A stretch of 64,000 nucleotides of DNA from Pseudomonas asplenii (lineage in GTDB: Bacteria > Pseudomonadota > Gammaproteobacteria > Pseudomonadales > Pseudomonadaceae): assembly GCF_900105475.1 (NCBI RefSeq), contig NZ_LT629777.1:3534001-3598000 (forward strand), in the 5' to 3' direction. The notes below the pieces were generated by a model. That model saw nothing but the letters and a program-made list of their open reading frames with translations. It did no database searches and was not told the DNA's origin. This document shows, piece after piece, positions 45,162 to 53,432 of the stretch. Numbering within the stretch: the stretch's first letter is position 1; each line of letters begins with the position of its first letter. Position numbers and translations under genes: made by a program.

Positions 45162-45486
45162 TCCGGTTTTTTTCTGGCCAGGTGGGTTTTTTGCGGCGCC
45201 AATGGCGGCATTTTGCTTTTAAGCCCCTCCAGATGCGCTCTCGAAGAGTTTCATTGGTCGCCTGTCAGGTTCCTTGTGTATCCGGGGATAGGTGCGTGGC
45301 GGCGATTGTGATAACATCCGGCGGTTTCCAGCGCGGCCCGAATCGGCTGCCCTTACTGCGCAGATTCATGGCATAACTCGTTGATTTGTCGTAAGTCGCT
45401 GCCAGGCATCAGGTCGGCAGCGACAAGCTTCGTTCGTCCCATATGGATGTGACGAAGTTTCACCAGAAAAAGGAATCAGGCTTCTC
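45162..45486. other. gyrA leader region
   Basis: These 325 bp between mtnA and gyrA contain no convincing gene. An AAGGA ribosome site lies about 12 bases before the gyrA ATG. TGTGATAACAT around 45306-45316 resembles an extended -10 element but has no clear -35. Confidence 0.4.
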
Positions 45487-50681: not shown

Positions 50682-51794
50682 ATGAGTGGTGACTTCCTCG
50701 CCCTGGCGCAGCCGGGCGTGCAAAAACTATCGCCTTACGTTCCGGGCAAGCCCGTGGACGAGTTAGCGCGTGAGCTGGATATCGATCCCGCACATATCAT
50801 CAAGCTGGCCAGTAACGAAAACCCGCTGGGTGCCAGCCCAAAGGCATTGGCGGCGATTGCCGGCGAACTGGCGGAACTGACCCGTTACCCGGATGGCAAT
50901 GGCTTTGAACTGAAACAGCGTCTGTCCGAGCTGTGCGGTGTGCAGGCCAGCCAGGTAACCCTGGGCAATGGTTCCAACGACATTCTTGAGCTGGTCGCCC
51001 GGGCTTACCTGGCACCCGGCCTGAACGCAGTGTTCAGCGAGCATGCCTTTGCGATCTACCCGATTGTGACTCAGGCCGTGGCGGCTGACGCTCGCGTGAC
51101 GCCGGCCAAGGATTTTGGCCACGACCTGCCGGCGATGCTGGCGGCAATCGACGAGAACACGCGTGTGGTGTTCATCGCCAACCCGAACAACCCGACCGGA
51201 ACCTGGTTCGGGCCGCAGGCGCTGGAGGCTTTCCTCGCCGCGGTGCCCGAGCGCGTGCTGGTGGTGTTGGACGAGGCGTACATCGAGTATGCCCAGGGTG
51301 ATGACCTGCCGAATGGCTTGAACTACCTGGTGAGCTACCCGAACCTGCTGGTTTCGCGCACCTTTTCCAAGGCCTATGGCCTGGCGGCGTTGCGGGTCGG
51401 TTACGGGCTGTCGTCGCCGGCGGTGGCGGATATCCTCAATCGCGTACGCCAGCCGTTCAACGTCAACAGCCTGGCCCTGGTGGCGGCCCGTGCCGCTCTG
51501 GATGACGCCGACTATGTGGCTCGCAGTCGCGAACTGAACGAGGCGGGCATGCAGCAGTTGGAGGCCGGTTTCCGTCAGTTGGGCCTGGACTGGATTCCTT
51601 CGCGTGCCAATTTCATTGCCGTCGATGTCGGTCGCGATGCTGCGCCGGTCTATCAGGGGCTATTGCGCGAAGGTGTGATCGTGCGGCCGATTGGTGGCTA
51701 CGGGCTGCCGCGGCATCTGCGGATCAGTATCGGCCTGGCCAGTGAAAACAGCCGGTTGCTCGAGGCTCTGGGCAAGGTTCTGGCTCGTGGTTGA
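50682..51794 (+). CDS. hisC: Histidinol-phosphate/aromatic aminotransferase
   Basis: A 370-residue class I/II PLP aminotransferase. The substrate and PLP contacts are in ASNENPLG near residue 42, NPNNPTGTWF near 168, DEAYIEYA near 197, and the PLP Lys in SRTFSKAYGLAALRVGY near 228. In Pseudomonas this second hisC copy (hisC2/hisHb) lies in the aromatic supraoperon and can act as an aromatic aminotransferase for prephenate, phenylpyruvate and hydroxyphenylpyruvate. It follows pheA by 11 bp. Confidence 0.94.
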   Translation: MSGDFLALAQPGVQKLSPYVPGKPVDELARELDIDPAHIIKLASNENPLGASPKALAAIAGELAELTRYPDGNGFELKQRLSELCGVQASQVTLGNGSNDILELVARAYLAPGLNAVFSEHAFAIYPIVTQAVAADARVTPAKDFGHDLPAMLAAIDENTRVVFIANPNNPTGTWFGPQALEAFLAAVPERVLVVLDEAYIEYAQGDDLPNGLNYLVSYPNLLVSRTFSKAYGLAALRVGYGLSSPAVADILNRVRQPFNVNSLALVAARAALDDADYVARSRELNEAGMQQLEAGFRQLGLDWIPSRANFIAVDVGRDAAPVYQGLLREGVIVRPIGGYGLPRHLRISIGLASENSRLLEALGKVLARG

Positions 51795-51798
51795 TGTC

Positions 51799-52746
51799 AT
51801 GTCGATGCAATCTGTGACGCCTATGATCGGCCGCCTGGTGGTGGTCGGTCTGGGGCTTATTGGTGGTTCCTTTGCCAAGGGCCTGCGTGAAAGCGGGCTG
51901 TGCCGGGAAGTGGTGGGGGTCGATCTCAATCCGCAGTCGCGCCGGTTGGCGGTGGAGTTGGGGGTGGTCGATCGCTGCGAGGAAGACCTGGCCGTTGCGT
52001 GTCAGGGCGCCGACGTGATCCAGCTGGCAGTGCCGATCCTGGCCATGGAAAAGATGCTTGGCCTGTTGGCGGGCATGGATCTCGGTCGGGCTATTCTGAC
52101 GGATGTCGGCAGTGCCAAGGGTAACGTGGTGCGTGCCGCGGGCGAGGCGTTTGGTGCCATGCCGGCGCGGTTCGTGCCCGGGCATCCGATTGCCGGTTCC
52201 GAGCAGAGCGGTGTCGAGGCCTCCAATGCCCGGTTGTTCCGGCGGCACAAGGTGATCCTGACGCCGCTGGCCGGGACCGATGCGGATGCCGTGGCAACGG
52301 TTGATGCGCTTTGGCGTGCGCTGGGGGCGGATGTCGAGCAGATGGACGTCGAACGCCACGACGAAGTGCTGGCGGCTACCAGTCATCTGCCGCACCTGTT
52401 GGCTTTCGGTCTGGTCGATTCGTTGGCCAAGCGCAACGAGAACCTGGAGATTTTCCGTTACGCCGCAGGTGGATTCCGTGATTTCACGCGCATCGCCGGC
52501 AGCGACCCGGTCATGTGGCACGACATCTTCCTGGCCAACCGCGAGGCGGTTCTGCGTGCACTGGATACCTTCCGCAGTGACCTGGATGTCCTGCGTGATG
52601 CCGTCGATGCAGGGGATGGGCATCAACTGCTGGATGTGTTCAAGCGTGCGCAGGCGGCGCGTGAGCATTTCGGCAGGATCTTGGCCCGACGGGCCAGCAA
52701 GGACACAATCAACGCCAACGATGATCATAAAGAGGCTCAGTCGTGA
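51799..52746 (+). CDS. tyrA: Prephenate/arogenate dehydrogenase, stand-alone (no AroA domain)
   Basis: A 315-residue TyrA. The NAD site is [19 protein letters not shown] near residue 10, and the catalytic His is in [14 protein letters not shown] near residue 130. In most Pseudomonas the protein continues after ILARRA...NAND into a ~430-residue EPSP synthase (AroA). Here it ends 16 codons after ILARRA with the residues DDHKEAQS, and the stop overlaps the cmk start (GTGA). All of the dehydrogenase domain is present; the AroA half is cleanly missing. ATGs at 51799, 51805 and 51823 are all possible starts. Confidence 0.93.
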
Positions 52747-53432
52747 ATATTCAAGCTCCCGTCATTGCGATCGACGGACCTAGCGGCTCGGGCAAGGGCA
52801 CCATCGCCGGCTTGCTGGCCAAGCGTCTGGGCTGGTGCCTGCTGGACTCCGGTGCGTTGTACCGGTTGCTGGCCTTCGCTGCGCGCAACCATGGCGTCGA
52901 CCTGACCAACGAGGAATCCCTCAAGCTGCTGGCGGCGCATCTCGACGTGCAGTTCATCGGCGCGACCGATGGTCAGTCGCAGCGCATCATCCTGGAAGGT
53001 GATGACGTCACCCAGGATATCCGTAACGAGTCCATCGGTGCCGGTGCTTCTCAGGTTGCGTCCCTGCCGGCGGTGCGCGATGCGCTGCTGCAGCGCCAGC
53101 GGGCATTTCGCGAAGCGCCGGGACTGGTGGCCGATGGTCGCGACATGGGGACCGTCGTGTTTCCCGATGCGCCATTGAAGATTTTCCTGACCGCCAGCTC
53201 CGAGGAGCGTGCTCGCCGACGCTACTTGCAGTTGAAGGCCAAGGGCGATGATGTTAGTCTGTCGAGTCTGCTGGATGAGATACGTGCGCGTGATGAGCGC
53301 GATACCCAGCGTGCGGTGGCCCCGCTCAAACCGGCGGCCGACGCCATACAGCTGGATTCCACGGAGTTGTCCATCGAGCAGGTGCTGGAACGCATCATGA
53401 GCGAGATCGCCATTCGCGATATCGCCGGGTGA
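52743..53432 (+). CDS. cmk: Cytidylate kinase
   Basis: A 229-residue CMP kinase. The P-loop [12 protein letters not shown] lies at ~9-20, [11 protein letters not shown] near 36, and [15 protein letters not shown] near 130. It phosphorylates CMP and dCMP. The start is GTG at 52743, overlapping the tyrA stop by four bases, with GAGG a few bases before it. It is directly upstream of rpsA, the common gamma-proteobacterial pairing. Confidence 0.97.

Follow-up and report, generated by a model that had tools for sequence, protein, structure and literature searches.

The tyrA-cmk locus

The window, by which we mean the whole 64,000-nucleotide stretch of Pseudomonas asplenii DNA analyzed here, carries the gene series serC-pheA-hisC-tyrA-cmk-rpsA, and in this series tyrA encodes a prephenate dehydrogenase that ends where an EPSP synthase (AroA) domain would be expected to begin (Table 1). 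With NF011381, the NCBIfam model of the fused enzyme (733 positions), the window TyrA matches only at positions 2-301 and scores 473.6 bits against a cut-off of 902; the dehydrogenase followed by a whole in-frame EPSP synthase domain (~740 residues) that this model describes is not what the 315-residue protein contains. Its coding sequence spans 51799-52743, with the stop TGA at 52744-52746, exactly 16 codons beyond ILARRA, a tail too short for the C-terminal half of AroA that follows TyrA in the P. syringae type. The four nucleotides GTGA at 52743-52746 combine the GTG start of cmk with the tyrA stop codon. An earlier note on this DNA had described each of these features (the missing domain, the 16 codons and the overlapping GTG), and sequence and translation bear it out exactly. 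The translations also agree with it that the rest of the series is undisturbed: serC, pheA, hisC, cmk, rpsA and an ihfB-like gene are all in place around tyrA, and aroC starts at 945.

The window gene occupies the same operon position as the TyrA-AroF (TyrA-AroA) fusion (NF011381 / PRK14806), and its TyrA domain is 86-89% identical to those of the listed fused relatives; it differs from them in having no AroA domain. A fused-type AroA domain used as a query found no match at tyrA of the genome. Elsewhere in the window, a gyrA RNA (RF01740, 83.9 bits) lies at 45389-45475, directly ahead of gyrA, and is the sole Rfam match at gathering score.

Table 1. Coordinates of the tyrA region in the window and of the stand-alone aroA in the same genome
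Feature	Position	Strand	Basis
hisC, upstream neighbour of tyrA in serC-pheA-hisC-tyrA-cmk-rpsA	50682..51794	+	start per 370-aa reading
tyrA, prephenate dehydrogenase without C-terminal AroA (EPSP synthase) domain, 315 aa	51799..52746	+	translation; NF011381 score; 10/398 genus genomes alike
Scar, upstream side: SKDTINAND, matched by eye with YVDAMNSND of the fused linker	52696..52722	+	comparison with fused relatives
Scar, downstream side: AAA GAG GCT CAG TCG TGA, left over from the end of the lost aroA	52729..52746	+	fused proteins end ..QEAQS-stop
cmk, (d)CMP kinase, GTG start, 4-nt overlap with the tyrA stop	52743..53432	+	TIGR00017 271.1 bits, cut-off 135.55
Stand-alone aroA, 418 aa	G000:C1:5318525-5319778		TIGR01356 354.6 bits, cut-off 287.25

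Distribution of the loss in the genus and family

TyrA was searched in 398 Pseudomonas genomes drawn from a larger group, and its open frame was read in 390 of them; outside this number are six genomes in which TyrA was matched and the frame not read (G075, G133, G222, G240, G316 and G330) and two with no TyrA match (G284 and G366). The frame is fused (at least 748 residues) in 359 of the 390, lacks the AroA domain in 15, carries half of it in 11 and is broken in five. The broken frames (G377, G076, G034, G385 and G080) look like frameshifts and enter neither the fused nor the clean-loss count. With 359 fused genomes, and relatives whose proteins measure 740-743 residues, a TyrA-AroA fusion of ~740 residues is indeed the Pseudomonas norm that the earlier note took it to be.

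The genomes that depart from this norm fall into three groups. Group A comprises the window genome and nine relatives (10 of 398) with the same 315-codon TyrA and 4-nt cmk overlap, among them P. agarici LMG 2112, P. gingeri A8002, P. batumici UCM B-321 and Pseudomonas sp. MWU13-2100 and QS1027. Group B consists of five further genomes without the domain (G023, G336, G161, G343 and G146), and in the 11 genomes of group C only the C-terminal half of AroA remains in frame after TyrA, in open frames of 538-551 residues. Within group C (loci L179-L189) the length of TyrA plus half AroA is near-constant, at 527-530 codons from the TyrA start.

The earlier note had proposed a comparison of the hisC-cmk interval in close relatives as a check. 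Error-like broken frames do occur in other genomes, namely the five listed above, and an assembly collapse or sequencing error might in the same way have hidden an aroA that truly lies between tyrA and cmk. However, the ten genomes of group A share one and the same 315-codon TyrA and overlap, five of them were recovered again in a second collection (where the remaining 75 of 80 loci are fused), the window genome is a single 6.53 Mb contig, and none of the ten yielded a class II domain at another site. A junction common to the window genome and nine relatives is not an assembly collapse, and the chance that this explanation is correct is vanishingly small.

In a sample of the family, fused frames are present in 18 of 19 genera. 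The sister genus g6 is mixed, with nine of 12 genomes unfused (G402, G418, G431, G441, G452, G459, G466, G473 and G494) and three fused. The exception in genus g3, G399, has a 322-residue TyrA frame (G399:C110), closely followed on that contig by an EPSP-synthase match, and it gave no close match of the G2 type described below; its arrangement is different from the others and consists of either unfused neighbours or a broken fusion.

The deletion scar and the cmk start signals

Fused relatives read ILARRA-YVDAMNSND-LIFLAQPGG ... QVGIRVA-QEAQS-stop. The short tail of the group A proteins matches the fused linker (MNxND) and the final codons (EAQS), with small variations among members, so that a trace of the former AroA domain survives at each end. 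The net in-frame loss is 742 - 315 = 427 codons. The retained downstream DNA, AAAGAGGCTCAGTCGTGA, includes a ribosome-binding-site-like AAAGAGG (52729-52735) just before the cmk GTG, and this element is likely the ribosome-binding site of cmk.

Of 94 genes labelled as fused, a total in which the broken frames G377 and G080 are counted, 85 have the 4-nt overlap of tyrA and cmk. The overlap is also kept in 22 of the 26 genomes that have lost all or half of the domain: 10/10 in group A, 11/11 in group C, and G023. In the other four group B genomes the tyrA-cmk gap is 138-318 nt, and a GAGG stretch still precedes the cmk GTG. G023, which lies elsewhere in the tree, has the clean form too; its TyrA ends KEGKS-stop, and the fused proteins of G086 and G287 end EEGKS-stop. 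The simplest reading, we infer, is that deletions have been tolerated up to the point at which the cmk start signals would go, and these signals would then form the downstream boundary of the deletion in the window lineage.

Phylogeny of the losses

A tyrA-cmk tree was built from 120 of the 398 genomes, with all 26 losers included. Group A is monophyletic (support 1.0) and is joined to 53 fused genomes at 0.985. Group C is likewise monophyletic (0.973), and two relatives with two copies, G370 and G018, stand beside it (0.909). Whole or half loss requires five losses without regain (group A, group C, G023, G336 and the G161 branch), or four state changes if regain is allowed, and node supports near G023 are low (0.644). 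At least one more loss took place in the sister genus g6. The earlier note had taken the conserved operon to have lost the domain cleanly and in a particular lineage: clean and lineage-specific it is, being found in ten genomes of one clade, but it is not unique, given the other losses in the 120-genome tree, to one of which, group C, the P. syringae case corresponds, and at least one more in g6.

It could also be supposed that the stand-alone tyrA is ancestral and that the fusion is younger than this clade, since in other proteobacteria tyrA and aroF are distinct genes that lie side by side (PMC1173090). Against this stand the preponderance of fused frames in the genus and their presence across the family, the nesting of the clade among fused lineages, and a tail that retains remnants of the fused linker and C-terminus. 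An ancestral unfused gene is thus extremely improbable, and the window tyrA descends from a fused gene.

The stand-alone aroA and related genes

The genome of the window has three genes of the EPSP-synthase fold: a murA beside hisG, a stand-alone aroA and a murA-like gene. The stand-alone gene scores above the TIGR01356 cut-off for aroA (Table 1), and its position far from tyrA corresponds to the stand-alone aroA that accompanies the disrupted fusion in P. syringae. Two sets of motifs tell the enzyme classes apart: GSKS and SSQ are motifs of class I EPSP synthases, and GDKS, SAQxK, RxHxE and NxTR are the marks of class II. The stand-alone protein has GSKSITN at 24 and SSQ at 170 and none of GDKx, SAQxK, RxHxE and NxTR, a class I-type pattern. 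The one fused domain tested, that of locus L014, carries GDKS, SAQVK, RDHTE and NPTR; it shares these four motifs with the class II EPSP synthases CP4, A1501 and P818, in contrast to the stand-alone enzyme of the window genome, from which they are absent.

A relocated class II domain was considered and rejected: with a fused-type domain as query, no class II copy was found in any of the ten group A genomes, the matches being to the stand-alone gene (28-36% identity) and to a 427-residue frame in G307 (24%). One intact stand-alone gene of class I type thus bears out the expectation of the earlier note that aroA would lie elsewhere and perhaps be of a different class. Within the clade this gene has a dN/dS of 0.091.

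The stand-alone aroA is of class I type and, judging from primer sites and published descriptions, belongs to the family of G2-EPSPS (G2-aroA, EF155478) from P. fluorescens G2; catalysis is predicted for it, and it may be glyphosate-tolerant. The published G2-aroA primer pair predicts an 896-bp product in the gene, with mismatches at 5/22 and 1/18 positions, and 896 bp is also the published product size. G2-EPSPS has 445 residues versus 418 here. The site at which G2-EPSPS has been split, F295/T296, would correspond to F269/T270, an offset of 26 against a length difference of 27; as this agreement is close and inexact, we did not use it as proof of family membership. At the site of E. coli Pro101, alignment to solved class I enzymes places Phe in all 64 stand-alone sequences examined, that of the window genome included.

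The murA-like gene (G000:C1:5628748-5629935; L003:1456-2721) scores 261.1 bits with TIGR01072, below the cut-off of 392.7. It adjoins a HAD-type hydrolase and an oxidoreductase with weak inositol-dehydrogenase-type matches, and may belong to a gene cluster for a natural product or a sugar.

History and site of the stand-alone gene

When the aroA locus of the window genome was compared with 39 other aroA loci, most of which extend just ~5-7 kb on each side, its gene order was found to be common only to G307 and G044. G115, G387 and G037 gave single weak flank matches (27-39% identity). The match in G037, which is P. agarici, is 27% identical, and the neighbours of the gene differ even within the clade (L214 versus L215, L216 and L217). 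Conserved synteny, kept in 2/39 loci, therefore failed as proof of vertical inheritance. In a tree of 64 stand-alone sequences the clade's copy stands beside those of G182, G195 and G152, unlike the clade's place in the tyrA-cmk tree. Because the two trees do not mirror each other, we do not claim simple vertical inheritance across the genus; this discord, together with the differing sites among clade members, means that the stand-alone gene may have moved or been replaced.

Domain loss among carriers of the stand-alone gene

An intact stand-alone aroA is present in 114 of the 398 genomes (113, plus G020, in which the copy is split over both contig ends). Among these carriers, 26 have lost the fused domain wholly (15) or by half (11) and 88 keep it; the 88 include G080, whose tyrA frame is broken ahead of an intact AroA part. 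A further 276 of the genomes read have no intact stand-alone copy (398 - 114 - 8, a number that includes four of the five broken frames as well as G235 and G359), and none of them shows a clean loss. Fisher's test of loss against the stand-alone gene gives p = 1.4e-15, a value that ignores kinship, and the association rests on about five events. The same pattern is seen in genus g6, where the stand-alone gene is present in 9/9 unfused and 0/3 fused genomes. Since 88 of the 114 carriers retain the fused domain, the stand-alone gene by itself does not lead to loss.

In G235 and G359 the stand-alone aroA itself lies in two pieces (G235:C49:23796-24990 and G359:C1:5208761-5209971) and the fused gene is intact. 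These cases are either the reverse outcome of redundancy or sequencing errors; if the former, redundancy can resolve either way.

Selective constraint on the fused domain was compared using pairwise Nei-Gojobori dN/dS, with bootstrapping over genomes and no codon model on the tree, in what amounts to a contrast of two neighbouring branches. The ratio of AroA to TyrA dN/dS is 0.67 (bootstrap 0.50-0.92) in 20 fused genomes without a stand-alone gene and 2.32 (2.10-2.57) in 32 fused genomes with one. Two other groups point in the same direction: 20 diverse fused genomes without a stand-alone gene give 0.069/0.089 (a ratio of ~0.8), and eight fused genomes near group C that have one give 0.099/0.058 (~1.7). 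From this single branch contrast and the two further groups, the fused AroA domain looks relaxed where a stand-alone gene coexists with it. The half domain of group C has a dN/dS of 0.17 versus 0.05 for group C TyrA and is relaxed yet still constrained.

A reversed order of events, in which loss of the fused domain came before the stand-alone aroA and the latter arrived as a repair, would suit a gene that moves, as the gene tree and flank differences suggest this one does. Yet a clean loss is seen in none of the 276 genomes that have no intact stand-alone gene; the two-copy state exists in other lineages, where AroA/TyrA dN/dS is raised, and the third gene of the window genome resembles murA (261.1 bits) rather than aroA (54.6 bits). 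Loss before gain is accordingly very unlikely.

Discussion

The separation of EPSP synthase from TyrA has a precedent. According to Song et al. 2005 (PMC1173090), this group of bacteria, P. stutzeri included, carries a TyrA-AroF fusion (aroF being aroA), and P. syringae lacks ~200 N-terminal residues of the AroF domain and has in addition a stand-alone aroF, probably acquired laterally. That text places the truncation at the N-terminus twice and at the C-terminus once, and the 11 group C sequences are without the N-terminal half. As in the window lineage, the EPSP synthase function of the fusion has been discarded in P. syringae and a stand-alone gene lies elsewhere. The two differ in that the P. 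syringae type, to which group C corresponds, keeps half a domain, whereas the window lineage, on another branch of the tree, has lost the whole of it. The same source suggests that the remaining half domain serves some other purpose, and the dN/dS of 0.17 leaves room for this. The portion of PMC1173090 considered makes no mention of a complete deletion in the branch of P. agarici, P. gingeri and P. batumici, and in the open-licence literature we found no paper joining tyrA, aroA and Pseudomonas gingeri. The window lineage thus adds an independent and cleaner instance to a phenomenon whose P. syringae example has been in print since 2005.

The class of the replacement enzyme raises the question of glyphosate, which the earlier note had expected to matter. 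G2-EPSPS comes from a strain of a glyphosate-polluted site, and G2-aroA is reported to confer resistance. In PMC3371024, G2-EPSPS and AM79-EPSPS are assigned to class I and P. stutzeri A1501-EPSPS to class II, the genes are said to have come from highly glyphosate-tolerant strains, and AM79-EPSPS is reported to have Phe at the site equivalent to Pro101. Membership in the G2-EPSPS family and the Phe common to all 64 sequences could therefore be taken to mean that glyphosate selected the swap, a tolerant enzyme replacing a sensitive one. However, the median pairwise dS within the clade is 0.48-0.56, from which the swap would be far older than the herbicide, and A1501-EPSPS, a class II enzyme like the fused domain, is also said, along with AM79-EPSPS, to enhance tolerance (PMC12973396). 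With A1501-EPSPS presumed to stand for the fused domain, as P. stutzeri has the fusion, the lineage appears to have exchanged one tolerant-type EPSP synthase for another. Selection by glyphosate is very improbable as the cause, and the swap alone predicts no clear change in glyphosate response.

The course of events that we favor, and hold to be highly probable, is the deletion of a fused class II-type domain after a second, class I-type EPSP synthase had arrived and made it redundant and relaxed. The ancestor would have had a TyrA-AroA fusion with a class II-type EPSP synthase domain; a stand-alone class I-type gene of the G2-EPSPS family would have entered the lineage, and the two genes would have coexisted for a while. 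The fused domain would then have come under weaker constraint, and the in-frame deletion would have followed. With a few linker codons and the last aroA codons kept, TyrA would still end in frame, and cmk would retain both its likely ribosome-binding site and the GTGA overlap. Chorismate would now be supplied via the stand-alone enzyme, with TyrA working alone; homology, the intactness of the gene and the need for the step all suggest that this enzyme carries the EPSP synthase step in the window strain. We infer the order of these events in the clade from its relatives: no clade member with both genes was seen, and the two-copy state is known from other lineages only.

More broadly, it is probable that the class II domain of this ancient fusion has been displaced again and again by a class I-type EPSP synthase gene that moves between lineages, with constraint dropping after its arrival, some branches excising the domain and the translation of cmk setting the limits. 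If so, the genus would let one follow, as a series in time, how a domain of an essential enzyme is displaced in nature, with the stages all represented: fused only, both genes, half domain and clean deletion, together with a broken newcomer in G235 and G359. An essential enzyme domain within a conserved fused gene can be discarded and the operon left unbroken, with relatives showing every stage. The EPSP synthase class of a pseudomonad is not readable from its tyrA operon alone, and this bears on genome-based prediction of glyphosate sensitivity.
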